NCBI GenBank assembly: GCA_014763545.1
Contig: JACXVD010000016.1
Coordinates: forward strand, 1 to 64,000
Reading direction: 5' to 3'
DNA length: 64,000 nt
Origin: Sphingomonadales bacterium
GTDB taxonomy: Bacteria; Pseudomonadota; Alphaproteobacteria; Sphingomonadales; Sphingomonadaceae
The position numbers and the translations under genes were made by a program. Every line of letters starts with the position of its first letter. Position 1 is the stretch's first letter. The notes beneath the pieces were generated by a model that had not been told where the DNA came from, did no database searches, and saw only the letters and a program-made list of their open reading frames with translations. Below, piece by piece: positions 1,535 through 59,480 of this stretch.

Positions 1535-2293
1535 CTATGCGCGCGAGGTCGGTACCGTATAGTTCAGCCCCAGCCGGCCGCCGTCGGGATAGATCGTCTG
1601 CCCGGTGAGGTAGCTGGCCTCGTCGCTGGCGAGGAACACGGCGATGGCGGCGACTTCTTCGGGCGTGCCGCAGCGGCCGAGCGGGGTGCGCGACAGGATG
1701 CGGTCGCCTGCCGCCGGGTCTTCGTCCACGATCCCTTGCAGCATCTCGGTCATGATCGAGCCGGGTCCGATGGCGTTGACCCTGATCCCGCGCGGGGCGA
1801 GCGCCAGCGCGGTGACATTGGTCAGCTGCTTCATCGCCCCCTTGGACACGACGTAGGGGATCTGGTTGGGGATCGCGAGCACGGCGTTGACCGAGCTCAT
1901 GTTCACCACCGCACCGCCCTCTCCCATGATCCGCGCGGCGGCCTGCGTGCCCCACAGCGCCGATTTGAGGTTGGTGGCGAAGACGCGGTCGAAATCCTCC
2001 TCCGCCAGCTCGTCGAGCGCGGCGGCGTGGGTGATCCCGGCATTGTTGACGAGCACGTCGAGCCCGCCCCACAGCTCAGCCGCGCGCGCGACCATCGCTT
2101 CGACCTCGGCCTTGCGCGCGACATCGGTGAGGATCGCCTGGTGGCCGAGTTCGCCCGCCAGCGCCTCTGCCGCCGGGTCGATATCCGCCAGCAGCAGCTG
2201 CGCGCCTTCGGCGGCAAAGCGCCGCGCGATCGCCTGCCCGATGCCATGCGCCGCCCCGGTCACGATCGCGCGCTTGCCTTCCAGGCGGTTCAT
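1535..2293 (-). CDS. SDR-family oxidoreductase
   Basis: A 252-aa classical short-chain dehydrogenase/reductase. The cofactor-binding TGAAHGIG is at residues 12-19, NNAG near 88, the catalytic serine region around MSSVNAV, and the YxxxK pair (YVVSK) near 150. The C-terminal PDGGRLGLNY is usual for this group. LADID after beta strand 2 suggests NAD(H) preference, because Asp there normally rejects NADP. The substrate cannot be read from sequence. No operon partner is evident. Confidence 0.88.
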   Translation of the reverse strand: MNRLEGKRAIVTGAAHGIGQAIARRFAAEGAQLLLADIDPAAEALAGELGHQAILTDVARKAEVEAMVARAAELWGGLDVLVNNAGITHAAALDELAEEDFDRVFATNLKSALWGTQAAARIMGEGGAVVNMSSVNAVLAIPNQIPYVVSKGAMKQLTNVTALALAPRGIRVNAIGPGSIMTEMLQGIVDEDPAAGDRILSRTPLGRCGTPEEVAAIAVFLASDEASYLTGQTIYPDGGRLGLNYTVPTSRA

Positions 2294-2372
2294 CGAATGC
2301 CTTTCTTCAAAGGAGGGCCATGGTCCGCGGAGCAGAAGCGAACGCGCGTTGCCAATGGACCATAGGGATCGC

Positions 2373-3842
2373 CTAGGTGCCGTCTACCCGGAACAATTCA
2401 CCATCGCTGTCCAGCACATAAAATCGGCCCAGGTCATCGGTCGCAAAACCGACAGGAGCATCGATCGTGCCGACATCGGGCTTGAAATCGGCGGTACGAT
2501 TTTCGAGTTCGGGCGCCTTGTGGAGATAGCCGTCGGTCAGCAGCGAAAGCGGGATCGACCAGATCAGCCCCCTCTGGTCGCCAAAGACATAATGAGCCTT
2601 GAGCTCGTTGGCGGGGCCGTCATAGACAAGGCCCGCGACGATGCCGGTTCCTTGCCGCGCACCGGTGCCAAAGGGATAGACCACGGTGGGGCCGATGATG
2701 GCCGCAGGCGGGGACGAAACCAGCGGCTCGGTTCCTTCGTAGTTTGGCCACCCGAAGCCGAGCGGCCTCGCGTCGGGGGCGAAGAAATCCAGTTCGTGCT
2801 CTTTCGAGCCGCCGCGATCGGCGATCAGCGTCTTCCCGTTGATCGTTCCACCGCCGGCAGGATCGCGCAGCCCGTCACCGACAATTTGCGGAGTGAAATA
2901 ACCCGGACTGAGCGATGCCCCCGCGTAGGGGTCGTATTGCACCAGCTTGTGGAGTTTGCCCAAGGGAGAGGCAGCATCCAGCGCCACGCTGGGGGATGAA
3001 TCGCCCACTGCAGCATAGAATTGCTGGTCCGACCCTTCGAGCAGCTTGATCCCCACCGCAGCACTGCCTGCGGGGAGCAGCACCGAATCCTTCAGTCCCC
3101 CGCGGTCGAAACGCTGGAGGACGACACTGGCGTCTGCGTTGCGCAACACGGCGTAAAGCCCGGCATAATACCCGCTCGCCCCCTGCCGGTAAGTCCGGCA
3201 ATCGAGCAGTTTGTCGGCGCTGCGGCCTGCGAATGCATCGGCCAGCAAGGTCTTGGCTCCGGTTGTCCCGTCGACCGCATAGATATTGCCTCCGGCTTCA
3301 CCCACGGCAATTCGTCCCGGTTGCGACGGAGTGGGCGCGACCACCGTATTCAGGAATGAAACGCAGGCGGGGTTGGTGAAACCCGTTGCAATGCGTGTGA
3401 CGGAAATTCCTTCCTTGTCATTGGTCACCGTCAGGGTGACGGGAAAGTCCCGGCTTACGCCGCCGCCGCTCGCGCGAATGGTGAGTTCGTAGACATTATC
3501 TGCATTGGCATCGCGGGGGCGTTCGAAATCGAGCGCCCCGATGATCCGCAACTCGCCTGTGTTCAAGATCGAGAAGAGGCTCGCATCCGCTCCGCCCGCG
3601 ACAGTGAATCCGACAGCACCACCGTTTGAGAGGGTTGCCGAAGCGGTGTAGATGGTTCCGCTGCTGTTCTCGACGACATTGGCCGCCGAGGATGAAGTAA
3701 CAGAGATCGACGGCGGGCCCGATCCTCCACCCGATCCGCCACCGCAGCTCGCCAGCGCCGCCATTGCCGCAGCGCCCACTGCGAGGCGAAGGTAAAATCG
3801 ATTCCCGGGCTGGCGAAGAATGCAATCAATCGAACGCGACAT
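2373..3842 (-). CDS. Lipoprotein: cadherin-like domain plus glucose/sorbosone-dehydrogenase-like propeller
   Basis: About 489 aa from the ATG at 3842, chosen because it gives a clean lipoprotein signal peptide ending in the lipobox LASC. A Gly/Ser linker is followed by a cadherin-like repeat (about residues 40-145) with the typical DFERPRDANADN calcium-site pattern. The C-terminal part (about 150-489) resembles PQQ-dependent sugar dehydrogenases of the GSDH family: ITRIATGFTNPA-like start, LGFGWPNYEG, GLVYDGPANELKAHYVFGD. Predicted to be anchored in the outer membrane or periplasm. Whether it binds PQQ or has enzyme activity is unknown. A longer start at 3875 is possible but spoils the signal peptide. 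Confidence 0.7.
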   Translation of the reverse strand: MSRSIDCILRQPGNRFYLRLAVGAAAMAALASCGGGSGGGSGPPSISVTSSSAANVVENSSGTIYTASATLSNGGAVGFTVAGGADASLFSILNTGELRIIGALDFERPRDANADNVYELTIRASGGGVSRDFPVTLTVTNDKEGISVTRIATGFTNPACVSFLNTVVAPTPSQPGRIAVGEAGGNIYAVDGTTGAKTLLADAFAGRSADKLLDCRTYRQGASGYYAGLYAVLRNADASVVLQRFDRGGLKDSVLLPAGSAAVGIKLLEGSDQQFYAAVGDSSPSVALDAASPLGKLHKLVQYDPYAGASLSPGYFTPQIVGDGLRDPAGGGTINGKTLIADRGGSKEHELDFFAPDARPLGFGWPNYEGTEPLVSSPPAAIIGPTVVYPFGTGARQGTGIVAGLVYDGPANELKAHYVFGDQRGLIWSIPLSLLTDGYLHKAPELENRTADFKPDVGTIDAPVGFATDDLGRFYVLDSDGELFRVDGT

Positions 3843-3929
3843 GAGGCCCCCAAATAGTCTCCCTATTCGGAACACCTAATCACCGCATCGAAGGCGAACA
3901 AGGCAATTCAGTCGGTTGGCGCCGGAACT

Positions 3930-5180
3930 TCAAATAATACCGACCGCCTTGCCTGCGCGTTCGAACATGCCGAGGATCGTTTCGACCTCCTCTTCGCTGT
4001 GTTCGGCGCAGAGCGAGCAGCGCAGCAGCGTCATGTTCGCGGGCGTTGCCGGCGGGCGGGCAAGGTTCACATAGAGCCCTTCGTGCAGCAGCGCCTCCCA
4101 CATCGCCGCGCCGCGCTCCAGGTCGGGCATGATCACGGCGACGATGGCGCTTTGCGGTTCGGTGGTACCGAGGGTGAAGCCCATGCCGGTCAGCCCGCCA
4201 TGCAGGCGCTTGGAATTCTCCCACAGATGCGCGCGCTTGTTGCCGCCGTGCATCAGCTTGCGGATGCTGGTCGCGGCGGTGGCGACGACGCTGGGCGGCA
4301 GGCTGGCGGTGAAGACATAGGGCCGGCAGACCAGCCGCATGATCTCGAACTTGGGATGGTTGGATACGCAGAAGCCGCCCACCGTGCCCACGCTCTTGGA
4401 GAATGTGCCGATCACGAAATCGACATCCTCCAGGCAGCCCTGCTCTTCGGCCACGCCGCGCCCGTTGGGCCCGATGAAGCCCATCGAATGCGCCTCGTCC
4501 ACCAGCACCATGGCGCCGTATTTCTTCGCGACGGCGATCATTTCCTTGAGCGGGGCGATGTCGCCGAGCATCGAATAGACGCCCTCGAGCACCACCAGCT
4601 TGCCCGCCCCTTCGGGAATGCGGCGCAGGCGCTTTTCCATCGCTTCGATGTCATTGTGCTTGAACGGCACGACTTCGGCATTGCCCATCGCGCAACCGTC
4701 CCAGATGGAGGCGTGGCTGTCGATGTCGAGCACGATGTAATCGCCCTTGCCGGCGATGGTGGAGATGATTCCGAGGTTGGCCTGGTAGCCGGTGGAGAAC
4801 ACCATGGCATGATCCATGGCGTAAAATTCCTTCAGCGCCTCCTCGCACGCCTTGTGGCCCTGGTAGGTGCCGTTGAGCACGCGGCTGCCGGTGGTGCCGC
4901 TGCCGAAATCGGCCAACGCCTGCTTGCCCGCTTCGATCACGTCGGGATCGAAGGTCATGCCCATATAGTTGTAGGTGCCGAGCAGGATGGTGTCGCGCCC
5001 GTTGCACACCGCGCGGGTGGGCGAGAGCACCTTTTCCATCACCAGGTTGAACGGATCCTCCACCCCGCTGGCGAGCAACGCCTCGCGCGTGTGGATGATG
5101 TCGTCGAACTTGGAAAAGAGGTCCTTCCCCTCGCCCGCGACCGCTTCCGGCTGGTCCGGCTGGCTGATGCCTTCGCTCAT
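3930..5180 (-). CDS. spt: Serine palmitoyltransferase (alpha-oxoamine synthase family)
   Basis: A 416-aa PLP enzyme condensing L-serine with a fatty acyl thioester to 3-ketodihydrosphingosine, the first step of sphingolipid synthesis. Visible residues fit the Sphingomonas enzyme with a shift of three: His156 (SHASIWDG), Asp228 and His231 (DEAHSMG), and the PLP lysine Lys262 (GTFSKSVGTVGG). The length is close to the usual 420. The start at 5180 lies six bases past the end of the acyl carrier protein gene, so the two are coupled. 8-amino-7-oxononanoate synthase and 2-amino-3-ketobutyrate CoA ligase are sister families. The dedicated ACP and the taxon favour SPT. Confidence 0.88.
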   Translation of the reverse strand: MSEGISQPDQPEAVAGEGKDLFSKFDDIIHTREALLASGVEDPFNLVMEKVLSPTRAVCNGRDTILLGTYNYMGMTFDPDVIEAGKQALADFGSGTTGSRVLNGTYQGHKACEEALKEFYAMDHAMVFSTGYQANLGIISTIAGKGDYIVLDIDSHASIWDGCAMGNAEVVPFKHNDIEAMEKRLRRIPEGAGKLVVLEGVYSMLGDIAPLKEMIAVAKKYGAMVLVDEAHSMGFIGPNGRGVAEEQGCLEDVDFVIGTFSKSVGTVGGFCVSNHPKFEIMRLVCRPYVFTASLPPSVVATAATSIRKLMHGGNKRAHLWENSKRLHGGLTGMGFTLGTTEPQSAIVAVIMPDLERGAAMWEALLHEGLYVNLARPPATPANMTLLRCSLCAEHSEEEVETILGMFERAGKAVGII

Positions 5181-5185
5181 TGCGG

Positions 5186-5440
5186 TCAGGCCCCGCCCTG
5201 CAGCTTGCACACCGCATCGACCAGCTGGCCGTAATTCTCGATCTCGGCCTGCTGGTTCATCGAAATGATGATGTCGAATTTATCCTCGATCGCGGCGACG
5301 AAATCCATCACCGTCAGGCTGTCGAATTCGAGGTCGCCGGCGAAGCTGGTGGCATCGGTCAGTTCGACGCCCTTCTTGTTGAACGGTTCGATCAGCGAAC
5401 GGATCGTGCTGTCGACTTCGGATCGGTCCATGCGGGTCAT
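5186..5440 (-). CDS. Acyl carrier protein dedicated to sphingolipid synthesis
   Basis: An 84-aa acyl carrier protein with the phosphopantetheine site EFDSL (Ser41) and the usual four-helix pattern. It lies immediately upstream of spt with a 5-base gap, an arrangement known from sphingolipid loci of Caulobacter and sphingomonads, where this ACP delivers the acyl chain to Spt. The reading frame extends upstream without a stop, but the ACP fold begins at the ATG at 5440 (an internal ATG at 5431 is also possible). It should need a 4'-phosphopantetheinyl transferase encoded elsewhere. Confidence 0.87.
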   Translation of the reverse strand: MTRMDRSEVDSTIRSLIEPFNKKGVELTDATSFAGDLEFDSLTVMDFVAAIEDKFDIIISMNQQAEIENYGQLVDAVCKLQGGA

Positions 5441-5590
5441 TCCAATCTGTTTGCGCACCCGCCGCAGCGGTTGCCATTCCAATGCGGCGGAAAAGCGGCT
5501 CCACCCCCCGCTTGTCAAGCGGGATGTCGGCTGGCAAGTCGGTCGGTGCGCGCAATTTCCGCTGGAATGCGGGGCACAGGGGGACAAAAG

Positions 5591-6160
5591 ATGGACCAGC
5601 CGACAGGCTCCCACGCCGAACCTCGGGCCAAGGCCCCGACGATCTACAATGATTACGCCACCGGGTCGGCGATCCATCTGGTGCGCAACACACAGATCAC
5701 CGGGCTGACATTGTCGCGCATGGCGGACCAGAAGGCGTCGATCCTGATGGGCGCGACCTTCGTGGTCTTCTCGCTCTCGGTCAGCCGTGCGACTGCCGGC
5801 GAATTGCCATGGTCGCTGGCGATCCTGGCGGTCTTCGCCTTTCTTTCGTCGATGTGCGCGGTGATGGCGGTGCTGCCGTCGACCAAGAAGGCCGACCCGG
5901 CCAAGATCGTGCCCAATCCGCTGTTCTTCGGCCATTTCGCGGAAATGGACGAGGAGGTCTGGATGCGTGACGTGATCGAGGCGCTGCGCAGCGACGAAAA
6001 AGTGTTCGAGATGATGTTGCACGACATCTACCAGAACGGGGTGGTCCTGCAGCGGCGCAAATACCGCTATCTCGGCATGGCCTATCGCATCTTCGTGACC
6101 GGGCTGGTGATCACCATGGTCAGCTTCGCGCTGGAAATGACGCTCGGCTATTTCGGCTAG
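5591..6160 (+). CDS. Pycsar-effector-like (PycTM/DUF5706) membrane protein
   Basis: A 189-aa protein with two hydrophobic helices (about 50-66 and 75-95) after the motif LSRMADQKASILMG, a cytoplasmic helical stretch, and a third membrane helix near 168-188. The ADQKAS segment leading into a membrane helix is characteristic of the DUF5706/PycTM family, whose studied members are effectors of cyclic-pyrimidine (Pycsar) phage defence. No cyclase gene is adjacent. The gene lies divergent from the sphingolipid pair and its stop overlaps that of divK. A housekeeping membrane role is equally possible. Confidence 0.6.
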   Translation: MDQPTGSHAEPRAKAPTIYNDYATGSAIHLVRNTQITGLTLSRMADQKASILMGATFVVFSLSVSRATAGELPWSLAILAVFAFLSSMCAVMAVLPSTKKADPAKIVPNPLFFGHFAEMDEEVWMRDVIEALRSDEKVFEMMLHDIYQNGVVLQRRKYRYLGMAYRIFVTGLVITMVSFALEMTLGYFG

Positions 6161-6531
6161 GCCGCCTCGCCCAGCAGCTTGCGCACTGCGGCCATGAACG
6201 GCTGGATCGAAACCGGCTTGGCGAGATAGCCCTGCGCGCCCGCGTCGCGGATGCGTTCCTCGTCACCCTTGCCGGCATAGGCCGTGACTGCCAGCACCGG
6301 GACATGCGCCAGCGTCGCATCGCGCTTCATCGCTGCGATCACATCGAGGCCGGAAACATGCGGCAGCTGGATGTCCATGATCACGAGGTTGGGGATGAAA
6401 TTCTTCGCCGCCGGGATCGCACCCTCGCCATCGGCCACAGGCTCGACCACATAGCCATTGGCCCGCAGCACATCGCAGAACAATTTCCGGTTGAGGTCGT
6501 TGTCCTCGACAACCAGTATTCTCTTTGCCAC
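6157..6531 (-). CDS. divK: Single-domain response regulator DivK
   Basis: A 124-aa stand-alone receiver domain with no output domain. Acidic pocket Glu9/Asp10, phosphoacceptor Asp53 (VIMDIQLP), the conserved Thr in AVTAYAG and the lysine in YLAKPVS are all present. In alphaproteobacteria DivK is phosphorylated by PleC/DivJ-type kinases and tunes CtrA activity in the cell cycle. The GTG start at 6531 follows a strong GGAGGG. The divergent neighbour is a DUF3572 gene, a common divK companion. The stop overlaps the convergent stop at 6160. Confidence 0.87.
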   Translation of the reverse strand: MAKRILVVEDNDLNRKLFCDVLRANGYVVEPVADGEGAIPAAKNFIPNLVIMDIQLPHVSGLDVIAAMKRDATLAHVPVLAVTAYAGKGDEERIRDAGAQGYLAKPVSIQPFMAAVRKLLGEAA

Positions 6532-26109: not shown

Positions 26110-27621
26110 TCAAGTGCACCAGTACGTCGATGTGGACCCGCGCGACCAGGCCGTCAAAGGGCGGCCACTCAAATACGACGGAACCGGAAATAGGCCCAGC
26201 ACATGTTCCCGGCGAACGGATGGATAAAACGCCGGACTGTTGCCCGCTGTCGCGGCGATGATCTTCCAGTTGGCTTCGATCTGGCCGCGCGTTGAACGCG
26301 CAATGGCCTCAATCATCTTCCTGGGTTCGAAGCGGTCCTCATCGAATGCAACGTTCTGCGCGTAGAGTGCTTCCACGAACGTGTCAGCATTACGCTTTGG
26401 GACAGCGCTGAAAGAGGCGGCCTTTATCAAAGTCAGGATCAGACCACCTTCGGCGGCGGCACCGTCCCAGCCATCGGCACGATAATGATCCAGCGCCGCC
26501 TCTTCGACGCTGGACACAGCTGAAGAACCATCAAAGCGCCATTGTTTGGCCCCGTCCTGCTCCAGTTCGACGACTTCGTGGCGGATACCCAAGCGTTCCG
26601 CCTGTTTCTGGTAGCGACTTACTTTTGCCGGCTTGGCCCCTTTGTCGGCGGGTCGCGTAGATCGCTGCAACTTGCCGAGGCGCCTCGCGACGCCGACCTG
26701 TGGATCGATCGCCAAAGCTTGCTCATAGGCATCAATCGCGAGAGCCACCTCACCTGCCTGCTCTTGCATCTCTCCACGTATCCGCAAGGCCTTTGCCTGG
26801 GTCCAGATATCGTCACCCTTGGCGGCAACATCGAGCCCTGCGAAAAGGGCATCGCGCAACTCTGTGGACGGATCTTGGCCTGCATCCTCAAGGGCCGTGC
26901 GGATGACTGACAAGTCTCCGGCCGCTATACGCCTCGCCTGCCAACCTTCGCGATCGACCATCTTGCCCACAAAGTCGTAAGCGACCCGGGCCTCCCCACT
27001 CTTGCCCAGGAATACGCGCCGGGCTTCGGTGTCGAACTCGTATCCATCGGCCCAACCGGTCTCCTGTTCCCAGCTGGCAATCTCTTTGCCCTGTTCGACA
27101 TCGAACAGGAAATAGCGGCAACTGTCGGGGCTGCCGGGAGCGTTGGCAGTCTGACAGATCGCAAACCGGCCATCTTCGGAAAGCCCGGAACTCGCCATAT
27201 TGGCAACGAACTCCCGTTCGAAGAGACTGCCGCCGTCGGCTCGAAATCCATGCAGGCGCCCCTTTAGTCCGTCACCAAACATCCAATCGCTGAGGATGAA
27301 GTTGCCATTGTCGGCGACATGACCGTCCTGTGGCCGCTCAAGGCGGCCCTCCAGAATGATCCGATCGCTTTCGAGCAATGCCCAGGTGCCGTGACCTTCT
27401 TCGCGGTATCCTCCCCGCGTTCCATCCGGATGGCGATCAGCCCAGATCAAACGATATCGACCCTTGGGAGAAACGGAGGAATGACCGATGAAGTCTAGTG
27501 AATCAATGGACACAAGGCCATGCCCGAACTCGTGGATGTCCAGTTTCGCCCTAGACGAAGCTACTGGCTGAGGGGCAGGCTGCGGCTCGCCTGAGAAAAT
27601 TCGCCGCAGAAAGTCCTTCAT
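26110..27621 (-). CDS. Hypothetical protein: propeller-like N-terminus plus TPR segment
   Basis: A 503-aa soluble protein. Residues 30-230 show repeated strand patterns (SPKGRYRLIWADRHPDG, DGRFAICQTANAPG) like a beta-propeller. A TPR helix pair is near 280-310 (GEVALAIDAYEQALAIDPQVG). A later segment, SVEEAALDHYRADGWDG and EGGLILTL, recalls the region before the nuclease core in FAN1/VRR-NUC proteins, but no E-x-K nuclease residues are visible before the end. It lies 17 bases downstream of hipA on the same strand. I do not assign a function. Confidence 0.5.
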   Translation of the reverse strand: MKDFLRRIFSGEPQPAPQPVASSRAKLDIHEFGHGLVSIDSLDFIGHSSVSPKGRYRLIWADRHPDGTRGGYREEGHGTWALLESDRIILEGRLERPQDGHVADNGNFILSDWMFGDGLKGRLHGFRADGGSLFEREFVANMASSGLSEDGRFAICQTANAPGSPDSCRYFLFDVEQGKEIASWEQETGWADGYEFDTEARRVFLGKSGEARVAYDFVGKMVDREGWQARRIAAGDLSVIRTALEDAGQDPSTELRDALFAGLDVAAKGDDIWTQAKALRIRGEMQEQAGEVALAIDAYEQALAIDPQVGVARRLGKLQRSTRPADKGAKPAKVSRYQKQAERLGIRHEVVELEQDGAKQWRFDGSSAVSSVEEAALDHYRADGWDGAAAEGGLILTLIKAASFSAVPKRNADTFVEALYAQNVAFDEDRFEPRKMIEAIARSTRGQIEANWKIIAATAGNSPAFYPSVRREHVLGLFPVPSYLSGRPLTAWSRGSTSTYWCT

Positions 27622-27638
27622 GCCTCACCCCTCCAGCA

Positions 27639-28871
27639 TCATGGCGTCAGCGCTGCTTCTGACTGCTCATGAACAAAGGCAGGCTCGTATTCCTTGGCCA
27701 GATTGCCCGAAACGCCCACCTCGCGCAGCACTTCGCACCAGTTGTCTGAAACCTTCTGCGCCATCTCTCGGATCATCCGGCGAGCGTCATCTTCGGCGAT
27801 CTCGAAAAACTGCGAAGCTTCTAGCGCGAGCATGATCGACCGGTCGTGCGAACCGCCTTCCATGATCGCGGTTTCGAGATGCGGATTGCGATCGGGGGCC
27901 GGATTGACGTCAAAGACTGGCGACAAGCGCCATTGTCCGTTGCCGACATAGAGGAAGCCGTGGTTCTTGAGATGATCGTCCTTGTTCGAGACCAGGATCG
28001 TGAAGATGAGCCGCCGGAACAGTTCTTCGAAATCGGCCTGCGGGTCGGCAGAATGCCCGCGCATGAAATCGACGATCTCGGTGTAGGATCCGTAGTCTCT
28101 CCCGGTCTTGCCCAACGCCGTCCGGGCCGAGATATAGGGAATGCGCGCACCTCCGCGCCGGTCGAAGCGTTCGATCAGCGCGACCGGAAAGGGGGAATCG
28201 GGCAGTTCCAGCCGGACGTTCGGCGTGCGAATGCCGCACATGCGCGCGAGCCGCAGCGTCGCGACTTCGACGCGTTCGATCGGCCGCTGGTCGTGAACTG
28301 AGGTGAACTTCGCGAGCCATAGCGCGTCACCGTCGCGGACATTGGCCTTCGGGCGGGCACCGCCCGAGCCGCCCGCCCCGGCAAGCGCCTGCATCTCTTC
28401 GGCAGAGATTTCCTTGCCCTGTTCGTAGGCGCGGGCGATGGCCGTGATGTTCTCCAGTTCGACAAGCCGCGGAACGGCATCGGCGGCATTGCCCCTGATG
28501 ATCGCTCCGTCAGCATCGAGAAATCGCAAAGCGCCCTGGCGGCACATGTCGTCGGACAGCGTGAGATATTCGAATTCGGAAAGGCCGTTGCCATACGCCC
28601 GTTCGAGCAGGCGGCGGCCCCAGTCATCTGGCGCAGCATCCGAGAATGCGCCCGGCAAGGAATCTCGCATGTGACCCGGCTTGCCTGATGTGTGAAACGG
28701 CCCCCCTTCGAGGGACAGCGCCGGATCAATTGCAAAGGCTTGCGGATTGTCGCTCCATTCCTGGTCATAGGTAAAGGTCGAGAACTGGCGCGGCCCGGTT
28801 TGCGTGAATCGCAATTGTCCGACCGGCGTCAGGCTTTCGCCAAGTGCGACCTGTGCGGAAAAATCGGCCAT
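27639..28871 (-). CDS. hipA: HipA-family serine/threonine kinase toxin
   Basis: A 410-aa HipA homologue. The N-terminal subdomain contains LPGAFSDAAPDDWGRRLLER. A Gly-rich loop, GAGGSGGARPKANV, carries the region of autophosphorylation and ATP binding in the family. The catalytic loop is SNKDDHLKNHGFL and the metal-binding motif is VFDVNPAPDRNPH. E. coli HipA phosphorylates GltX and induces persistence; the target here is unknown. The start overlaps the hipB stop (TGATG). Confidence 0.88.
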   Translation of the reverse strand: MADFSAQVALGESLTPVGQLRFTQTGPRQFSTFTYDQEWSDNPQAFAIDPALSLEGGPFHTSGKPGHMRDSLPGAFSDAAPDDWGRRLLERAYGNGLSEFEYLTLSDDMCRQGALRFLDADGAIIRGNAADAVPRLVELENITAIARAYEQGKEISAEEMQALAGAGGSGGARPKANVRDGDALWLAKFTSVHDQRPIERVEVATLRLARMCGIRTPNVRLELPDSPFPVALIERFDRRGGARIPYISARTALGKTGRDYGSYTEIVDFMRGHSADPQADFEELFRRLIFTILVSNKDDHLKNHGFLYVGNGQWRLSPVFDVNPAPDRNPHLETAIMEGGSHDRSIMLALEASQFFEIAEDDARRMIREMAQKVSDNWCEVLREVGVSGNLAKEYEPAFVHEQSEAALTP

Positions 28872-29248
28872 CAGAATGCCACGCCGTCCTGATCGGTGTC
28901 ATCACCCTCACTGCCATGCGACTGGCTTTGCCGCGAGCCGGCGCGACGGGTGCCGGCGGACGATCTGCCCCTTCGGGGCAAGCGCTCGGCATCGAGAGCC
29001 ATTCCCAGCTCGTCCTTGCGGGCGTCGATGAGGTCGGCCAGCCGTTCAATGAGCCCAAACACCACGAGGACATCGCTCAGCGTTCCAATTCCGACGCCTG
29101 AATCGCCCTTTTCAAGTCGTGTTATGGTGCTCGCCGATGTTCCTGCGCGCACTGCCAGATCGGCGACAGAAATGCCTCTGCGCAGGCGTGCGCTGCGCAG
29201 GTCATTGCCCAGCTGTTTCAGGGCGCTTCTGGACTTGGGCGAACTCAT
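28871..29248 (-). CDS. hipB: HipB-like XRE antitoxin/repressor
   Basis: A 125-aa protein: XRE helix-turn-helix at residues 12-70 (LRSARLRRGISVADLAVRAG, TSASTITRLEKGDSGVG), then a basic, probably disordered tail. HipB proteins neutralise HipA and repress their own operon by binding palindromes upstream. ATG 29248 lies just inside two earlier in-frame TTG codons. Its stop overlaps the hipA start by one base. Confidence 0.83.
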   Translation of the reverse strand: MSSPKSRSALKQLGNDLRSARLRRGISVADLAVRAGTSASTITRLEKGDSGVGIGTLSDVLVVFGLIERLADLIDARKDELGMALDAERLPRRGRSSAGTRRAGSRQSQSHGSEGDDTDQDGVAF

Positions 29249-29259
29249 CAACAATCATC

Positions 29260-47036: not shown

Positions 47037-47303
47037 ATGACGACACCACAGTTCGAAGATCGCGCGCCATCCGATGATCACATCACGGAGTATGACGAGC
47101 GCCATTTTGTGACGTATTTACGGATACTTGACGCTGATGCCGAGGGCGCCGACTGGCGCGAAGTCGCCAAGATCCTCTTCGGCCTGGATACTCGGGTCGA
47201 AGAAGAACGCGCGCGCGCTGTGCATGACAGCCATCTCGAGCGAGCGCGCTGGATGACGACGCATGGCTATCGCCACCTGCTTGATAAATCACGAAAAGGT
47301 TGA
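47037..47303 (+). CDS. Small DUF2285-type companion protein
   Basis: An 88-aa helical protein (ITEYDERHFVTYLRILDADAEGADWREVAKILFGLD, then ERARAVHDSHLERARWMTTHGYRHLL). The same small gene regularly precedes the DUF6499/DUF2285 gene in conjugative elements of sphingomonads and others. Its precise role is unknown; DNA binding is a guess. Confidence 0.68.
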   Translation: MTTPQFEDRAPSDDHITEYDERHFVTYLRILDADAEGADWREVAKILFGLDTRVEEERARAVHDSHLERARWMTTHGYRHLLDKSRKG

Positions 47304-47460: not shown

Positions 47461-48235
47461 ATGTCCGGTGGTTCGTCTTGGCGGTCACCATCGACCGCAG
47501 ATCAGTATTGCGATCACGACTACGCGGATTTCGCGCAGGAATTCCTGAATCGCAATCGCGACTACCGGCAGGACTATGCCGATACCCAGGCCCGCATTGC
47601 CGAGCATCCTGCGAAACTACGAGAAGAACAGGAGGGCCTGGCCGGGCGGTGGGGCCTGTGCTTTCCCCACCGATCCTGAAGCCAATGTGCGCGAATGTCC
47701 GGCGCTGTGGTCGCCCGAGATTGCGCCGGATGTCGTCACCATTGAGGCTGCAAACCCGGCAGGTGCGATCCCGCTGCCGAAAGGATCTGAACCGCTGGCC
47801 GAGTATGCGAGCGGCACTGACCGCCATTACGTGATTGCCATCGCTTCCGCACGGCTGCGCCTGTGCGTGCGTAGTATGCCGGACCTGGCCATCCCCACCC
47901 TGACGATTCCCTGTGATCCCGCTTGTGCCTTGCGGCTTGCCGCTGCTGCCCGCTTTCAGCGGGTGACGCAGGGCAAACAACCGAACATCGACCGCGCGGT
48001 AGTGCCAACCGCCTACCAGCGATCCCGGTGGGTCCAGTTCCTCGCATTGCATGACGCGCTGGAGGCCGGGGCCTCCTCGCGCACACTCGCTTTCGACCTC
48101 GTCTTTCCTCGCCACCGTCCGCTCAGGGGCGCTGAATGGAAGGGCTCCGGGGAACGGCGTCACGTTCTGCGCCTGACAGCCGCTGCGCGCCGTCTCGTCG
48201 CTGGCGGATATCGCAGCCTGCTCCTCCACCATTGA
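47461..48235 (+). pseudogene. DUF6499/DUF2285 protein interrupted by a single-base frameshift
   Basis: From ATG 47461 the frame encodes a DUF6499-like start (WRSPSTADQYCDHDYADFAQEFLNRNRDYR) to GRWGLCFP and then stops at 47679. The next frame continues the protein (TDPEANVRECPALWSPEI) to 48235 with the DUF2285 C-terminus (WKGSGERRHVLRLTAAARRL). Removing one C from the CCCC run at 47665-47668 restores a single frame. It is therefore a recent inactivation, a sequencing error or a slippery site. The intact homologues are about 255 aa. Confidence 0.72.
48168..48230 (+). repeat. 63-bp imperfect direct repeat, left copy (end of the DUF2285 gene)
   Basis: Compared without gaps with 49964-50026, 48 of 63 bases match (about 76 percent). 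This copy encodes the last residues of the DUF2285-type protein (LRLTAAARRLVAGGYRSLL). Confidence 0.7.
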
Positions 48236-48257
48236 AAGCGGGAGGTGGCTTTCAATA

Positions 48258-49901
48258 TCAGCTCTCTGTCGGCGCCTTGATCGACCAGCGTGATCTGGCT
48301 TCCAGGAATGCCTGCACTACCCCACGCAGCAATATCAGACTCATCCGTTCCAGCCGGAGCTGATTCTCTTCCGATATCTGGTGATGGGCATTTCCGCGAA
48401 TGGCCTGGCAGATTGCGAGGTCGCTGGCGATTTGGGCGTCCAATGTTCCACCTTGCTTTGAATTGAACCAGTCGAGATCAATCGCTGCGGATAGCTGCGA
48501 AATTCTCCGATATTCGTCGCTCTTCAGCAGCTTGCCGACGGATGTCGCGGCCGGCCATATCTGTTTGAACTTCTCGTAAAGCTGGGTTTTCGGGAACTGA
48601 ACATTTCCGACCAACATTGCATGAACGATGTGCTCAACGCTCAATGCCATACCCTGGAGATCACTTTTGAGCCCGGCCAGATGTCGAGAATCCCCCGAGA
48701 ATGCCCGTTCATTCAACGAACGCCAGCGCCAATAGAATTCGTACAGGTCGTTTCCTTCGACAAAATCCAGGAAGTCGTTCGCATCTTCCTTGGTAAAGTC
48801 GGCCTTCAGAAGCGCGTCAGGTCGTGAAAAGCTGACGATCAAACGTTCGGCGTCTTCGCGCCATTCGGTTGACCAGTCCTGGAAAATCACTCGCAAGGTC
48901 GGTTTGAAATGCCCGGTCACACGGCCGACATCATCGAAAAGTCGTTGTGGTGGAACGTCCTTCAGGTAGCGGGCAAAAACCACTGCCTTCCCAATGAACG
49001 CCTTATAGGCCTTTGTGTGGTGCTGATATCCAATTCGTTCCCAGTCTCCCCAGCGTCTGCAGAGGAATCTGACTACCTCGATGACTTTCGGATAGCTGAC
49101 CCGGAAGCGCTCCCGACATCGTTTCGCAAGCTCAACCGACCTTGCTTCCATTTCAGCATGTTCATGGTCATCGATCTGACGGCGCCCCTTCCACCCCCTT
49201 CGCGTCAAAACGTATTGATCGTTCCTTGCGTCCTCCTCTGTGAACCAGACGATGGCGTCCAGAACCTTTTCAAAACTCCGGAATGACCGCAGGGAGCGGA
49301 TCGGTTCGAAGCTGATACCGCCACCAGTCCAGGATTCCGGGATCACGCCGGATTGCCAATCCCAATCCTCGGTATTGCCAAAATAGCTCGTCCCCATATC
49401 GTGGCACTCAAGGAAAAGGAGCAGTTGCCACGAACTGTAATACGTTACCGCTGTCTGGCTGTGCCAGAGGGGACCGCTTCGCTTTCCATCCACGCGGACA
49501 CGAAAATCAGCCCACGGCACGAATTTTCGCTTGGCCGGGTACTGAATGAATTGACGCCATTCTTTGTTCGGGCTGTCCAGCGGGTAGGCTTCGGTCAGTG
49601 GGTCAGCGTCCCACTTTCGACCTTGGCTTTGGCGAGCACGTTCCAAGGCGCAAGCCGCCTTCCAGCGCGGACCATTGGGTTCTTTCGGCCCCATTGGCCT
49701 TGGGCGTGGATAGCCAGGGCGCTCCATGGCGTACCACCGTCGTTCTATAGGATCGGGATACCGCAATCGTAGTCGCGGCACCAGTATCCGTTGCCGCTCA
49801 AGTCGTTCGAGAAGCCCTTCATTTGGCGGAAAAAGCAAGACTCTCAAGTCTTTGAGCTCGGACAGGAATTGACGAATTTCTAGATGACGAGAGAACCGCA
49901 T
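48258..49901 (-). CDS. Cargo protein of unknown function with possible C-terminal HEPN motif
   Basis: A 547-aa soluble protein, less GC-rich than the backbone and on the opposite strand. No ATPase or nuclease motif is seen in residues 1-450, which are rich in Trp, Tyr and charged helices. The C-terminal 90 residues are helical and contain AICQAIRGNAHHQISEENQ. Arg followed three and four residues later by His fits the RxxxxH motif of HEPN RNases. It lies between direct repeats that derive from the end of the DUF2285 gene, so it is an insertion in the backbone. A defence role is inference only. Confidence 0.6.
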   Translation of the reverse strand: MRFSRHLEIRQFLSELKDLRVLLFPPNEGLLERLERQRILVPRLRLRYPDPIERRWYAMERPGYPRPRPMGPKEPNGPRWKAACALERARQSQGRKWDADPLTEAYPLDSPNKEWRQFIQYPAKRKFVPWADFRVRVDGKRSGPLWHSQTAVTYYSSWQLLLFLECHDMGTSYFGNTEDWDWQSGVIPESWTGGGISFEPIRSLRSFRSFEKVLDAIVWFTEEDARNDQYVLTRRGWKGRRQIDDHEHAEMEARSVELAKRCRERFRVSYPKVIEVVRFLCRRWGDWERIGYQHHTKAYKAFIGKAVVFARYLKDVPPQRLFDDVGRVTGHFKPTLRVIFQDWSTEWREDAERLIVSFSRPDALLKADFTKEDANDFLDFVEGNDLYEFYWRWRSLNERAFSGDSRHLAGLKSDLQGMALSVEHIVHAMLVGNVQFPKTQLYEKFKQIWPAATSVGKLLKSDEYRRISQLSAAIDLDWFNSKQGGTLDAQIASDLAICQAIRGNAHHQISEENQLRLERMSLILLRGVVQAFLEARSRWSIKAPTES

Positions 49902-50160
49902 TGGCGGTTCTTATCGCACCGCAAAGCGCGTCACAAAGACTTCAAACGGACCGTGCAACGTCTTGCGCCTGACGGCCACTTAACGCCGTCTCGTCTCCAG
50001 CGGATATCGATCATTGCTCCATCACCGCTAACGCGACCCATGGGGTGACATTCGTGTCGCCGCCCACTCTGTCACTCCCTCAAGGTACCGCTGCCACGCC
50101 AAAGCTCGCGAACCCCAGCGACAGCCCGCTGTCGCATCCCATCTTCGCCGGAGCCTTGCC
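49902..50160. other. Gap with a decayed second copy of the DUF2285 gene end
   Basis: 49964-50026 is the right copy of the 63-bp direct repeat. In frame it still reads like the DUF2285 C-terminus (VLRLTAT, stop, RRLVSSGYRSLLHH) but carries an internal TAA. The rest of the gap holds the upstream region of the HTH gene and no other gene. Confidence 0.65.
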
Positions 50161-50433
50161 ATGGACGCCAGACCCACGCCTGTAACCGCCCGTTTCCTGC
50201 GGACGCCCGATGCCGCCGTGCATCTTGGCCTCTCGGCCCGCACCCTAGAAAAGCACCGCTGCTTCGGAACCGGCCCGGTCTACCGCAAGCTTGGCGGGCG
50301 GATCGTCTATGCCCTCGCCGATCTCGATGCCTGGGCCGAACAGGGCCTGCGCCGCTCAACCAGCGATCCGGGCAAGGGCGTAGTCCACCCGGCCAAGCGG
50401 CTTGACGGCTACACCCCGCCAGTACGGCGCTGA
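50161..50433 (+). CDS. MerR/AlpA-type helix-turn-helix protein
   Basis: A 90-aa DNA-binding protein: RFLRTPDAAVHLGLSARTLEKHRCFGTGPVYRKLGGRIVYALADLDAW is the excisionase/AlpA-like helix-turn-helix. This gene always precedes repA in this element family and probably regulates it or helps excision. Ten bases separate its stop from the repA start. Confidence 0.78.
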   Translation: MDARPTPVTARFLRTPDAAVHLGLSARTLEKHRCFGTGPVYRKLGGRIVYALADLDAWAEQGLRRSTSDPGKGVVHPAKRLDGYTPPVRR

Positions 50434-50443
50434 GGGACGATCC

Positions 50444-51325
50444 ATGCCCCGCATGTCCGCCCTTGCTGCGAGCCCGGCCCAGCTCGACCTGTTCGTCAGC
50501 GCAGGGGGCGATATCGCCACCCGGGATGCGCAGGATTTGATGGCCTGGCCCTTTTTCAGTCTCGCCAAGTCGAAACGGGTCAAGCCCATCGACTTCCGGA
50601 TGGGCGAGGTCTCGATCCTGGTCGAGGCGACCGCTGAGCACGGAATGGCGACCATCTGGGACGCCGACGTGCTGATCTGGGTTGCCAGCCAGATTGTCGA
50701 AGCGCGCGACATGGGCCGACCGACTTCGCGGCTGATCGCCGCCACTCCGCACGAGATCCTCGCCTTCACCCGGCGCGGGACCGGCAAGGCGAGCTACGAG
50801 CGGCTGAAAGCCGGGCTCGACCGGCTGCAATCGACCACGATTGCGACCTCAATCCGCCAGCGCGACGCGCGGCGGCGGCACCGCTTCTCCTGGATCAACG
50901 AATGGAAAGAGCGCCTCGACGGCTCTGGCCGCGCGCTCGGGATCGAGATGATCATTCCCGACTGGTTCTACGAGGGTGTGATCGACCAGGCGCTCGTGCT
51001 GACCATCGACCCGGACTATTTCGCGCTGACCGGCGGCCTCGAACGCTGGCTCTACCGGCTCGTGCGCAAGCATGGCGGAAAGCAGAAGAATGGCTGGAGC
51101 TTCGATTTCCAGCATCTGCATGTGAAGTCCGGCGCCCTGTCACCGCTCAAGCGCTTCGCCTTCGAGCTGCGCGACATCGTGCGCCGACAAGCGCTCCCCG
51201 GCTACCAGCTCACCATCGAACACACACTCGGCCGCGAGCGGCTGATGTTCGCAGCGCTGCCCGCCGATCCCTTCGACGTCGCCATGCGGCGCGTCGGTCT
51301 GCGCCCTGTGGATATGTCATCATGA
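50444..51325 (+). CDS. repA: Replication initiator protein RepA
   Basis: A 293-aa initiator of the RepA type found on IncP-like plasmids and Tn4371-like elements: LDLFVSAGGDIATRDAQDLM, WPFFSLAKSKRVKPIDFRMG, FTRRGTGKASYERLKAGLDRL, and the C-terminal winged-helix part GGKQKNGWSFDFQHLHVKSG. Three iteron-like repeats begin three bases after the stop, fitting a function in origin binding. ATG 50444 was chosen for agreement with family N-termini. Autonomous replication may let the element persist after excision. Confidence 0.83.
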   Translation: MPRMSALAASPAQLDLFVSAGGDIATRDAQDLMAWPFFSLAKSKRVKPIDFRMGEVSILVEATAEHGMATIWDADVLIWVASQIVEARDMGRPTSRLIAATPHEILAFTRRGTGKASYERLKAGLDRLQSTTIATSIRQRDARRRHRFSWINEWKERLDGSGRALGIEMIIPDWFYEGVIDQALVLTIDPDYFALTGGLERWLYRLVRKHGGKQKNGWSFDFQHLHVKSGALSPLKRFAFELRDIVRRQALPGYQLTIEHTLGRERLMFAALPADPFDVAMRRVGLRPVDMSS

Positions 51326-55795: not shown

Positions 55796-58288
55796 CTATT
55801 TTTTATCGAGGCGTCGGTAGTAGATTCGTTGACCGGGATTGGCGGGATCGATCTGTCGGAAATTTTCTGCATATTGATCGATATCCTGCAACACTCCCAG
55901 CAGCATATGTGCGGTGAAGGGTTGGCCGACCGAGGTCTCGTAGTGTGCGATGCAATTGGCGATAATGGACGTTGCGTGGGTTTGCTTGACCGCTGTCTTC
56001 TGCGCTGCGTCTAGGACACACTCGCCTGCCTTATCGTAAAGGTCGACCGCCCGCGTAATCGCGTCGAAATAAGTGGAAAGGGTGCGATTGTCGGGCCGTG
56101 TCGCATAGTCCGGCGGTACAGGAATCTGCAGCCGTGCGATGATGTAGCCGAGCTTGTACTCAAGATATTGGCGGACGAGCGGACCCGCGAGGTCGACACT
56201 GCCTTGGTTGAGCAGCGCGGTCGCCCGCTGCTTCAGTCGGTCGGCACCTTGGCGGCTGCTCTGCACGGCACCTGTCGGCGGCATGCCTTGAAGCTTCTGG
56301 TGGTGCCAGTCCTTGGTGTTGCCTAGCCGATCGAAGAATTTCTCTAACGCACTGTCGTGGCTTAGTAGGATAAACTGGACGCCGTCGGGTTTCGCGCCGT
56401 AGCGAAGCTCCTTCACCAGCACTTCCATCAGATTGAATTGATGGCCGCCATCAAAGCTTGACGTGATGTCGTCGAGCACCATGAAGCGTGGAGGACGAGT
56501 ATGCTTCACCGCAGCCGATAGGAAGATGGAGGCGGCTACCGCATTACGATAGCTCTCCGACAACACGGCGCGGGCGTTCACATTCTCTTCGCCATGGAAA
56601 TCTGAGAGCGTCAGGTCGATATTCTCGCTCTTTGCGGCGCGGGCGAGATGCGGCTTCAAATCAGGCGCGCCGCGCATGATTAACGGGAACAGTGCTTTGT
56701 AGGCCGTCTCTATGTCCTTGAGACGCTCGGTCGACAGCTTGGTCTCCGCATCAGCAAAGACTTTATCGGCTTTGCCAATGAACGCCAGCCAGCGATCGAT
56801 TTTCGCCATGGAGGCTTCGGCCGCAGCGAGTTTCGAAGTGGCGCTATCCAAGCCAGCAAACTCGTCGCGGAATTTTTTGGCATTCTCAATCGCCCGCGCC
56901 GCCGCCGCGACAGACGGCGGCAGACTCTTCTCCAGCTCGAGAATTTCGCTCTCGAGAGCCGTGATCTTTTCGTCGCGGGCCTTGGTCAACGTGTCGAGCC
57001 GAGCCTTTACCTGCCCGATCTCCGCGGTCTTAACCGAACCCTCCTTCGCCCCCTTGAACAGCCCGTCCGCAATCTGCTCCTCGAGCGGCACGTCGAGCAC
57101 GGCCGCTTTCTCGAGCTTGCTAAGCAGTGCTATAGCCGGACAGCCCATACATAATTTGGCGAGTTCGGCATCTAGCTCCTTAACGGCGTCATAGGCAGCG
57201 ATCTTTTCTTCGAGCCGCGCTTTCAGGGGCGTCTCCTGCGGCAGATCGCAGACCGGGCAGCTTTCGTCGTCAGGCCATGCCGGCGCTCCGATCACAGTGG
57301 CGGCGCTCTTGAGCAGCGAGAGCAAGTCGGCATGGCCGACCTTCGCGAGCGCCTCGTCACGTTCTTTGGCGGTAACCTCAAGCGCATCGAGCTGACCGAC
57401 ATGCTCTTCAGAGATGGTCAGTTCGCGCACCGCTTCGCGGTCCTGCTGCATCTTCTGCAGCTTGAGCCGGTTCGCGCTGTCGGAGCCTTCTTCTAAGGCG
57501 GCGACTGCCGCCTTGTGGTCGAAATCCTTGACGGTCTTCCCGGCCATGACCTCTTCCAACGCGCCAATATCAGTCAGCACCTTGGTGACAGTTTTCTCTA
57601 GCGTGGCGCGATCGTCAATCTGGTCGAGGGACTGCCCAGTCAGTTCCGTATAGGCTTCGATAATCTTGCGCTTTGCCTCCGCAACACTGGCCTTGTGCGC
57701 GCCGATGTTCGCACTCAGCACCTTAATCCCAAGATCGTTGCGCAGCGTGGCGGTGTTGTTCGCGCCCTGGATCGCTTGGCGGAGGTTCGAATATTGGCTG
57801 AGGCCGATCAGGGCCGAAAAGGAACGGCCGCGCAGTAGAGCGGTGTTGTCGATGAAGCCGGCAAACGTCTTGTAATCGACGAGTACGAAATCCTCGCGGA
57901 GTGCATATAGGAGGTCCTCCGGCGTCGCGTAGCCGGACGGCGAGGTGACGACGCGGTTGCCATTGGCATCGCGTACGATGCGGATGGTCACATCGGCGCT
58001 GCCGTCGTCGGGTGAGAGCTTAAGTTCGATCGTCGCCGTCTTGGCTGGATGGAAGCGGTTGGCGATGTAGCTTTCGCCCTGCTCGGCACCCTGCAAGGCG
58101 GCAAGGCGAGGGATTTCCCCGTGGATCGCGAATTGGAGCGCCTCGAAGATCGAGGTCTTCCCGACGCCGTTGTTTGCGTAGATCGAGTTCACGCACTCCG
58201 GCTTGAACGAAAGTGTCAGCGGATCGCTGTCATTGTTGATGCCGCGAAAGCCTTCGATCGCAATTTGCGTAAGGAAGTAACGACTCAT
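55796..58288 (-). CDS. Rad50/SMC-like ATPase with zinc-hook-like cysteines and C-terminal helical domain
   Basis: An 830-aa ABC-type ATPase. Walker A is ANNGVGKTSIFEAL (about 38-51), the signature LSESYRNAVA (576-585), Walker B RFMVLDDI (601-608) and the H-loop LSHD (642-645). Between them are helical arms and two cysteine pairs, CPVC (344-347) and CMGC (380-383), resembling a zinc hook or an internal zinc ribbon. Residues about 690-830 form an extra helical domain containing IIANCIAHYETS, reminiscent of HEPN folds but without the catalytic Arg. It overlaps the 72-aa gene upstream. Similar architectures occur in phage defence ATPases; the exact family is not known to me. Confidence 0.7.
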   Translation of the reverse strand: MSRYFLTQIAIEGFRGINNDSDPLTLSFKPECVNSIYANNGVGKTSIFEALQFAIHGEIPRLAALQGAEQGESYIANRFHPAKTATIELKLSPDDGSADVTIRIVRDANGNRVVTSPSGYATPEDLLYALREDFVLVDYKTFAGFIDNTALLRGRSFSALIGLSQYSNLRQAIQGANNTATLRNDLGIKVLSANIGAHKASVAEAKRKIIEAYTELTGQSLDQIDDRATLEKTVTKVLTDIGALEEVMAGKTVKDFDHKAAVAALEEGSDSANRLKLQKMQQDREAVRELTISEEHVGQLDALEVTAKERDEALAKVGHADLLSLLKSAATVIGAPAWPDDESCPVCDLPQETPLKARLEEKIAAYDAVKELDAELAKLCMGCPAIALLSKLEKAAVLDVPLEEQIADGLFKGAKEGSVKTAEIGQVKARLDTLTKARDEKITALESEILELEKSLPPSVAAAARAIENAKKFRDEFAGLDSATSKLAAAEASMAKIDRWLAFIGKADKVFADAETKLSTERLKDIETAYKALFPLIMRGAPDLKPHLARAAKSENIDLTLSDFHGEENVNARAVLSESYRNAVAASIFLSAAVKHTRPPRFMVLDDITSSFDGGHQFNLMEVLVKELRYGAKPDGVQFILLSHDSALEKFFDRLGNTKDWHHQKLQGMPPTGAVQSSRQGADRLKQRATALLNQGSVDLAGPLVRQYLEYKLGYIIARLQIPVPPDYATRPDNRTLSTYFDAITRAVDLYDKAGECVLDAAQKTAVKQTHATSIIANCIAHYETSVGQPFTAHMLLGVLQDIDQYAENFRQIDPANPGQRIYYRRLDKK

Positions 58289-58503
58289 TTTGCCTTCTCT
58301 GCCGTGGGTAGGGCGTCGAGAGCCGCGTTCACTTTCGCGTTAAATTGAGATCGCGCGTCGCGATCTGCGCCGTGCGTGATCAAAATATCGATATTGTCGA
58401 AGAGAATCTTGGCGCATTCGGCATCAAGCTCTTCGCACGCCGCCTTAAAGATGGCGAGATTTTCATCGAAAGACTTTTGAGCGTCGAACACAAATTCCCC
58501 CAA
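58285..58503 (-). CDS. 72-aa helical partner of the SMC-like ATPase
   Basis: A short, all-helical acidic protein (FDAQKSFDENLAIFKAACEE, AKILFDNIDILITHGADRD). Its stop overlaps the ATPase start by four bases (ATGA), which indicates obligate co-expression. It may be the small subunit of the ATPase. No family recognised; the size and position recall small middle components of ATPase-based defence systems. Confidence 0.6.
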   Translation of the reverse strand: MGEFVFDAQKSFDENLAIFKAACEELDAECAKILFDNIDILITHGADRDARSQFNAKVNAALDALPTAEKAK

Positions 58504-58727
58504 CAGCTGACATTTTGAACTGCATATAGATCATTTCCGTGAAGACAATATCGTCCCGCTGCTCGAGATATTGAATGGTGGAGCGCAGAACTCAAGCATC
58601 AAATAGGGGCGACTTTTTCGGTTCAATCGCAGCCCGTTTCGCCATGAAGGAGATGCGTTACCTCGGCCGTCCGCTTCGGCACAATTCTACCGGGCAGCCG
58701 CCATTCCCCTATCGGCCCCAATTGTGG

Positions 58728-59480
58728 TCAGGGAGTAGTCTTCTTCCCAGCGGCGAGCAGCCGCTTGGGTTTTGCGGGAATACTTTTCTTGATGCCTAAT
58801 GCCTTCTGGCCGACGATAAAAGCGCGATGGAGGAACACCTCTAGCGATGAGAGCAGTTCGGAAACCTCCTGACTGTCGGGCTCCCAGCCGCGATGCGCAG
58901 CCGCATTACCCGCATCCGTAACAACGCCGAGGATGTCCCGCTCAGTTTGCCCGATCCACCCTCCGTCGCGCAGCTCGTTCAGTTTCTCATCGAATGTCTT
59001 GGCCGGGTCGATGCCGAGGACTTCGGTTGCACGGTCCAGTGCCGTTCTGAGTCCTATCGCCGTGAGGATGTGTGCCTCGTTGTCGTGCGCTACGTACATC
59101 TGGCTCAGGATATTGCGCAGCTGGGGGTCAGCCTTTTGCATGGCGTCGAACCATACCGGCTTCGTCTTGGCCTCTGGCTTCGGATAAGTTTGTATCTCCC
59201 TCGGATGCTCATACTGCTCCTGCCCCGTCGCATCGTAGTAGTGATCGATGTCTTCGCTGTTCCAGCTGGAAGTTTCGTAGAAGACCGTCTCGCACCCTCG
59301 ACATTCGAGCAGAGAGTGGTCGACACCGCCGTTGACCGAATGGCCATATTGCCTGTCCTCCCAGTCCCAAGCCTTGTAGATCGAGCCGTGGATTTCGCAG
59401 GTGCGCTCGCCATCGCAGGTGGGACAGTGCCCCTTCTTCGTTGCGTTTGTTGTTGTCGGTGTCGTGGCCATAGAGCCCAA
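58728..59480 (-). CDS. Zinc-ribbon DUF4145 (HEPN-like) protein
   Basis: A 250-aa protein. An N-terminal zinc ribbon uses CPTC (19-22) and CRGC (60-63). The C-terminal DUF4145 domain (about 130-225) has ALDRATEVLGIDPAKTFDEKL and VTDAGNAAAHRGWEP. DUF4145 is a HEPN-like fold, but the RxxxxH pair is incomplete here, so RNase activity is doubtful. It lies 224 bases upstream of the 72-aa gene on the same strand and looks like the first gene of the module. ATG 59471 is an alternative start. Confidence 0.68.
   Translation of the reverse strand: MGSMATTPTTTNATKKGHCPTCDGERTCEIHGSIYKAWDWEDRQYGHSVNGGVDHSLLECRGCETVFYETSSWNSEDIDHYYDATGQEQYEHPREIQTYPKPEAKTKPVWFDAMQKADPQLRNILSQMYVAHDNEAHILTAIGLRTALDRATEVLGIDPAKTFDEKLNELRDGGWIGQTERDILGVVTDAGNAAAHRGWEPDSQEVSELLSSLEVFLHRAFIVGQKALGIKKSIPAKPKRLLAAGKKTTP

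Follow-up and report, generated by a model that had tools for sequence, protein, structure and literature searches.

A probable HEPN-type effector gene as cargo within the predicted FseA/RdfS excision switch of a Tn4371/ICEMlSym-type conjugative element

A single gene for a 547-residue protein separates the FseA-like activator gene from the RdfS-like gene of what appears, from its gene content, to be a Tn4371/ICEMlSym-type conjugative element, in the 64,000-nucleotide stretch of Sphingomonadales contig JACXVD010000016.1 that is here called the window. The preferred reading, to which a probability of roughly 0.6 is given, is that this single gene of the slot encodes a HEPN-type effector lodged in a cargo site of the element's excision switch. 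As modelled, the protein is probably a single-gene, HEPN-type abortive-infection effector and putative RNase carried as ICE cargo; the cargo site is real and its occupant probably a HEPN-type defence protein of an unrecognised family. The protein represents a candidate defence family that lies outside the annotation libraries searched and is open to test. Its position points out a site for cargo within the excision switch of conjugative elements of a widespread type, and the FseA-box/rdfS signature could serve in a systematic search for further defence cargo. That the flanking genes form an FseA/RdfS excision switch had been missed in the first-pass annotation of this DNA.

The excision switch and its cargo site

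The features around the cargo gene, in order along the window, are the following.

47037..47303, plus strand: QseM-like short DUF2285 gene, putative anti-activator (PF10074, E 4e-11; a lone DUF2285 gene before the DUF6499-DUF2285 pair)
47461..47679, plus strand: DUF6499 half of the FseA-like activator (PF20109, E 1.1e-19)
47576..48235, plus strand: DUF2285 half of the FseA-like activator, intact, its 3' end forming the left repeat copy (PF10074, E 2e-24)
48162..48230, plus strand: left repeat copy, 3' end of the DUF2285 gene (repeat comparison)
48258..49901, minus strand: 547-residue cargo gene, with a predicted C-terminal HEPN-like domain at residues 368-547 (48261-48800) (open reading frame, relatives, domain model)
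49958..50026, plus strand: right repeat copy, decayed DUF2285/FseA 3' end with an in-frame TAA (repeat, blastn, tail alignment)
50042..50078, no strand assigned: FseA-box-like dyad GGGGTGACA-N19-TGTCACTCC, intact (place, and co-varying arms in most relatives)
50161..50433, plus strand: RdfS-like excision factor, HTH_17 (PF12728, E 4.5e-8; between the FseA-like and RepA genes)
50444..51325, plus strand: replication initiator protein A of the element backbone (PF10134, E 6e-88)

The roles of the flanking genes as FseA-like activator and RdfS-like factor are assigned by homology and position. QseM is a lone DUF2285 protein and FseA a DUF6499-DUF2285 protein that binds an inverted repeat, the FseA box, and in FseA a WGL motif adjoins a +1 frameshift (PMC10359603). 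The DUF6499 and DUF2285 reading frames of the window overlap and are one base apart, and the DUF6499 half carries a WGL just ahead of where they overlap, which points to a +1 frameshift from the one into the other. The ICEMlSymR7A FseA/QseM/RdfS switch (PMC10359603, PMC11963761) shares with the window the DUF6499-DUF2285 pair, the lone DUF2285 gene, the HTH_17 gene and an inverted-repeat box before the latter. It differs in that the window has a defence-like gene between fseA and the box, and in that the second arm of the box stands ~90 bp before the rdfS-like start here vs 62-67 there.

The dyad at 50042-50078 is a candidate FseA box. Its second TGTC lies 91 bp ahead of the rdfS-like start, and a dyad at like distance with co-varying arms is found in 14/17 of the rdfS upstream regions compared, 91-92 bp before rdfS in most related elements, with arm pairs TGACA/TGTCA, CGACA/TGTCG and GGACA/TGTCC. 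The arms change together, as expected for a protein-binding site. The fseA-like gene, the box-like dyad and the rdfS-like gene are all intact, and the cargo sits between an activator gene and the predicted site of that activator's product without loss of either. As a side observation, the arms vary among the window and the L031-L053 rdfS upstream regions (TGACA, CGACA, GGACA) and fseA is the least conserved gene, a possible sign of co-evolving specificities.

The first-pass annotation had proposed a cargo slot in this interval, and comparison of related elements bears the proposal out. A search with RepA as bait gave matches in 40 of 246 genomes, a small sample chosen by best match, and the slot was counted over the 22 elements having both a DUF2285 gene and rdfS, fetched plasmids and regions included. 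The interval is empty (~115-175 bp) in 20 of these 22, measures 1.9 kb in the window and 4.9 kb in one other element (L069), so that the 547-residue gene is not fixed there. The insert of the latter (2013-6478, G080) runs opposite to the backbone and holds a type VI retron reverse transcriptase (6.6e-61) with an HTH gene (1.5e-27), as well as a PtuA/PDC-M01A-like ATPase (2.3e-100) with its HNH-type partner PDC-M01B (2.7e-37). This cargo and the gene of the window occupy the same slot in the same orientation. Because another element holds different defence cargo there, similarly oriented, the comparison supports the interval between the FseA-like activator gene and the FseA box/rdfS as a cargo site. 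In other elements that have no fseA at this place a DUF736 or HU-like gene precedes rdfS.

The right junction and the second fseA tail

The right junction of the cargo is marked by a decayed copy of an fseA tail. Direct repeats previously placed at 48168-48230 and 49964-50026, matching at 48 of 63 bases, are real and prove slightly longer, extending ungapped over 69 nt (48162-48230 and 49958-50026) at 75% match; between them there is, as had been described, one opposite-strand gene. The pair is not due to chance, because the end of the DUF2285 gene recovers the right copy by blastn as its sole other match in its own 3.07-Mb genome (E = 2.2e-6). The right copy translates as NVLRLTAT*RRLVSSGYRSLLHHR* vs HVLRLTAAARRLVAGGYRSLLLHH* for the intact tail; its decay by a stop codon, noted earlier, is seen as an in-frame TAA that breaks a coding relic of the DUF2285/FseA 3' end. 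When gaps are allowed, the right copy can be aligned with a related element's tail from as early as ~49925. A short tail-like relic before rdfS in another element (L068; 32/47 bases) is suggestive at most.

The cargo was most likely acquired by recombination at the fseA 3' end, which would have left the second tail to decay. Arrival of the gene together with a foreign DUF2285 end, as proposed earlier, is one of two possible origins of the second tail. The last residues of the relic are HR*, as in the backbone of two relatives (L030 and L031) and not HH* as in the intact gene, but the third codon positions of the relic are closest to the intact gene, and a duplicate of the same lineage is therefore equally possible. 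In that alternative, the tail would have been doubled by an insertion at the fseA 3' end, with later decay of the outer of the two and no foreign fseA involved. Att-like junctions do duplicate a sequence end on insertion. The relic is indeed nearest to the intact tail (54/75; third codon positions 17/25), and the mismatches between the two are spread without bias over the codon positions (37/50 vs 17/25), as in a pseudogene. The HR* ending and the lack of a recombinase in the insert speak against duplication, and distance alone is indecisive: the relic matches the intact tail no better than the intact tails of separate elements match one another (53-60/75), and the fseA genes of other element pairs are equally different (70-77% in nucleotides). 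Duplication is a serious contender, put at somewhat under even odds; it concerns the origin of the two tails alone and is compatible with the reading of the gene as a HEPN effector. A mosaic origin of the window's fseA, considered on the basis of a jump in identity, was dropped: in every element pair compared, no gene varies more than fseA, and its divergence is consequently no proof of import.

The predicted C-terminal domain and the relatives of the protein

The 547-residue protein has no match in Pfam, NCBIfam, PADLOC or the PDB, and none of weight in PHROGs; in particular, no sequence-level match to any HEPN family is found in Pfam, NCBIfam, PADLOC or the PDB, the PDB profile searches returning nothing HEPN, and there is no Rfam match. 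The missing HEPN profile match is indecisive because HEPN families diverge beyond the reach of profiles. A profile match to a described HEPN family is the usual sign of membership and is not strictly required of divergent members (PMC3710099).

Relatives are rare. One full-length protein (65%) and one fragment (73%) come from the same family of bacteria, two others are on Bradyrhizobium plasmids (32%), one is a truncated copy in R. etli, and one more lies on a prophage-like contig. A first scan of the genome collection with the single protein gave zero relatives; an alignment query reached four, in Bradyrhizobium, a Hyphomicrobiales MAG and two Caulobacter. Among 385 genomes drawn from the class there is no relative besides the window's own. 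The start codon of the cargo gene is covered by a hairpin (49893-49912) with a perfect 8-bp stem, AGAACCGC-CAAU-GCGGUUCU, and z -3.2; this hairpin was set aside and is given no weight because it is unseen in the start regions of the relatives.

The full-length AF2 model is poor (pLDDT 57.7), the first 207 residues being nearly all below 50 and the Foldseek matches meaningless, and the N-terminal 200 residues yield no confident model. Its VIA list nevertheless carries the HepT toxin chain 5yep_C at rank 3, and the C-terminal domain was therefore folded alone. The AF2 model of residues 368-547 (the C-terminal 180, from six sequences) has a mean pLDDT of 83.8 and a pTM of 0.83. HepT toxins head its VIA matches: 6m6u_G (Z 8.2, rmsd 3.6, 116 of 130 aligned), 7bxo_D (Z 8.1, rmsd 4.0, 118 aligned) and 7ae2_A (Z 7.8, rmsd 4.4, 125 aligned), with YutE 1ylm at Z 7.4 (rmsd 4.3, 124 aligned). 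HEPN proteins account for 10 of the 11 best VIA matches and the first clearly unrelated one has Z 6.9, although helical bundles without any relation can also score a Z of ~8, which alone is no proof. Foldseek places the HEPN toxins 7ae2 and 7ae6 at ranks 1 and 2 (probability 0.96 and 0.94, with weak E values of 0.26 and 0.27).

HEPN proteins are four-helix bundles in which an insert separates helix 2 from helix 3; an Rx4-6H motif ends helix 3, a second conserved acidic residue, often as Ex3[KR], lies in helix 2, and the motif has been lost in many families (PMC3710099). The structure prediction that had been put forward as a check of the HEPN assignment gives a HEPN-like four-helix bundle. E423, H424, R502 and H506 are common to 10 aligned sequences, that of the window included. 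In the model R502 is the final residue of the helix 487-502 and H506 comes after it, ahead of the last long helix (514-539); E423 is in the second long helix of the domain, the residue four on being neither K nor R. The invariant E423, R502 and H506 are thus placed, in the model, where HEPN active-site residues lie. The C-terminus does carry the RGNAHH pointed out earlier (the translation ends ...AIRGNAHH...), and the motif was right in kind; the letters were imprecise, for the conserved pair is R502-x3-H506, and H507, which would make R-x4-H, is S or T in near relatives. This spacing lacks one residue relative to Rx4-6H, and R is followed by G in place of the usual polar residue. The window's subgroup reads R-G-[NG]-[AV]-H, and another, distant subgroup R-N-x3-H, i.e. 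x4. The model accordingly predicts a HEPN bundle for the C-terminal 180 residues, in which helix 2 bears a conserved acidic residue and helix 3 ends in an R...H pair; HEPN membership is strongly suggested, short of proof.

Proposed function, neighbourhoods and other cargo

RNase action and abortive infection are inferred. The HEPN domain would be an RNase kept inactive in the uninfected cell. Its release would come with a phage or foreign-DNA cue, for which the N-terminal part of ~360 residues would be the sensor; cleavage of RNA would then halt growth and abort infection, protecting the host and hence the resident element. Comparable single-gene phage-defence cargo of mobile elements with a HEPN-like domain is known in Tha of S. 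aureus prophages (PMC11087260) and in HepS of Gifsy-1 (PDB 9oij), the latter a weak structural match to the domain (Z 5.3, rmsd 3.9, 115 aligned); unlike these, to which no sequence relation is detected, the 547-residue gene is carried on an ICE-type element.

At least seven relatives have, no more than 10 kb away, genes that match known defence systems, a count made without a matched control. These include a Gabija-like GajB helicase with an AAA ATPase ahead of it (L006), a GajB/RTasHel-like helicase (L005), Upx (L009), a PbeA-like helicase adjoining an HATPase (L010), an LmuB-like gene (L011), SIR2 (L012) and, near a truncated copy, a type I methyltransferase (L008). Another relative is beside phage structural genes and DUF4238 (L014), and the nearest relative (L007) is found instead among metal and arsenic resistance genes, named from translations alone. 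Such defence-rich neighbourhoods fit mobile defence cargo, with no formal control for the counts.

The same evidence bears on other roles for the gene. It could be cargo with a task apart from killing infected cells, for example in regulation or maintenance of the element, its HEPN-like domain lacking catalytic activity or serving to bind RNA or protein, and the non-canonical R-x3-H with G after R, together with the many HEPN families that lack the motif, would agree with this. Yet R and H are invariant in 10/10 aligned sequences, the distant R-N-x3-H subgroup included, and are therefore taken to be under selection; as the neighbourhoods too are rich in defence genes, such a role is judged unlikely. 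Still less probable is a HepT-like toxin of a toxin-antitoxin pair maintaining the element. The MntA-HepT toxins (PDB 6m6u/7bxo/5yep/7ae2) are the best structural matches, the predicted bundle spanning 116-125 residues of the 130-141-residue toxin with R and H closing helix 3 in both, but identity is 6-10% and R-x3-H here replaces R-x4-H. HepT has ~140 residues vs 547 here, of which 360 make up an N-terminal part; no antitoxin or partner gene is visible beside the gene, and neither MNT nor another small partner adjoins it in the window or is common to its relatives. A functional use of the slot, in which a defence gene divergent from rdfS shares the FseA-box intergenic region and is induced with excision, so that the element arms protection on leaving or entering a cell, is most improbable of all.

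The element backbone follows the rdfS-like gene in the order RepA, S26 peptidase, DUF736, transglycosylase-like gene, DUF3363 relaxase and TraG. RepA, relaxase and TraG (PF10134, PF11843, PF02534) represent a Tn4371-like backbone, on a contig of 73 kb that may cut the element. The interval between relaxase and TraG (55796-59480) contains an SMC/RecF-like ATPase (LmuB-like, E 2.5e-22) and a protein with DUF4145, a HEPN family. This pair is possibly a second defence cassette and occupies the traI-traG position, where Tn4371 ICEs are known to carry cargo. Tn4371-family ICEs have in common with the window the RepA, RlxS-type relaxase (DUF3363) and TraG backbone and cargo between core genes, their cargo lying between traI and traG whereas here it lies between fseA and rdfS (PMC11448139).

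Elsewhere in the window (26110-29254) a HipA-like gene adjoins an XRE-like gene, the latter identified by its translation, and a TPR protein is encoded further on. In another element of the group (L068, 4600-10830) a 2076-residue Avs3a-like protein (E 2e-167) is encoded upstream of DUF736, and in a further one (L074, 1718-5567) arsenic-resistance-like genes, recognized from translations alone, lie between DUF736 and the QseM-like gene, which would constitute a second variable slot.
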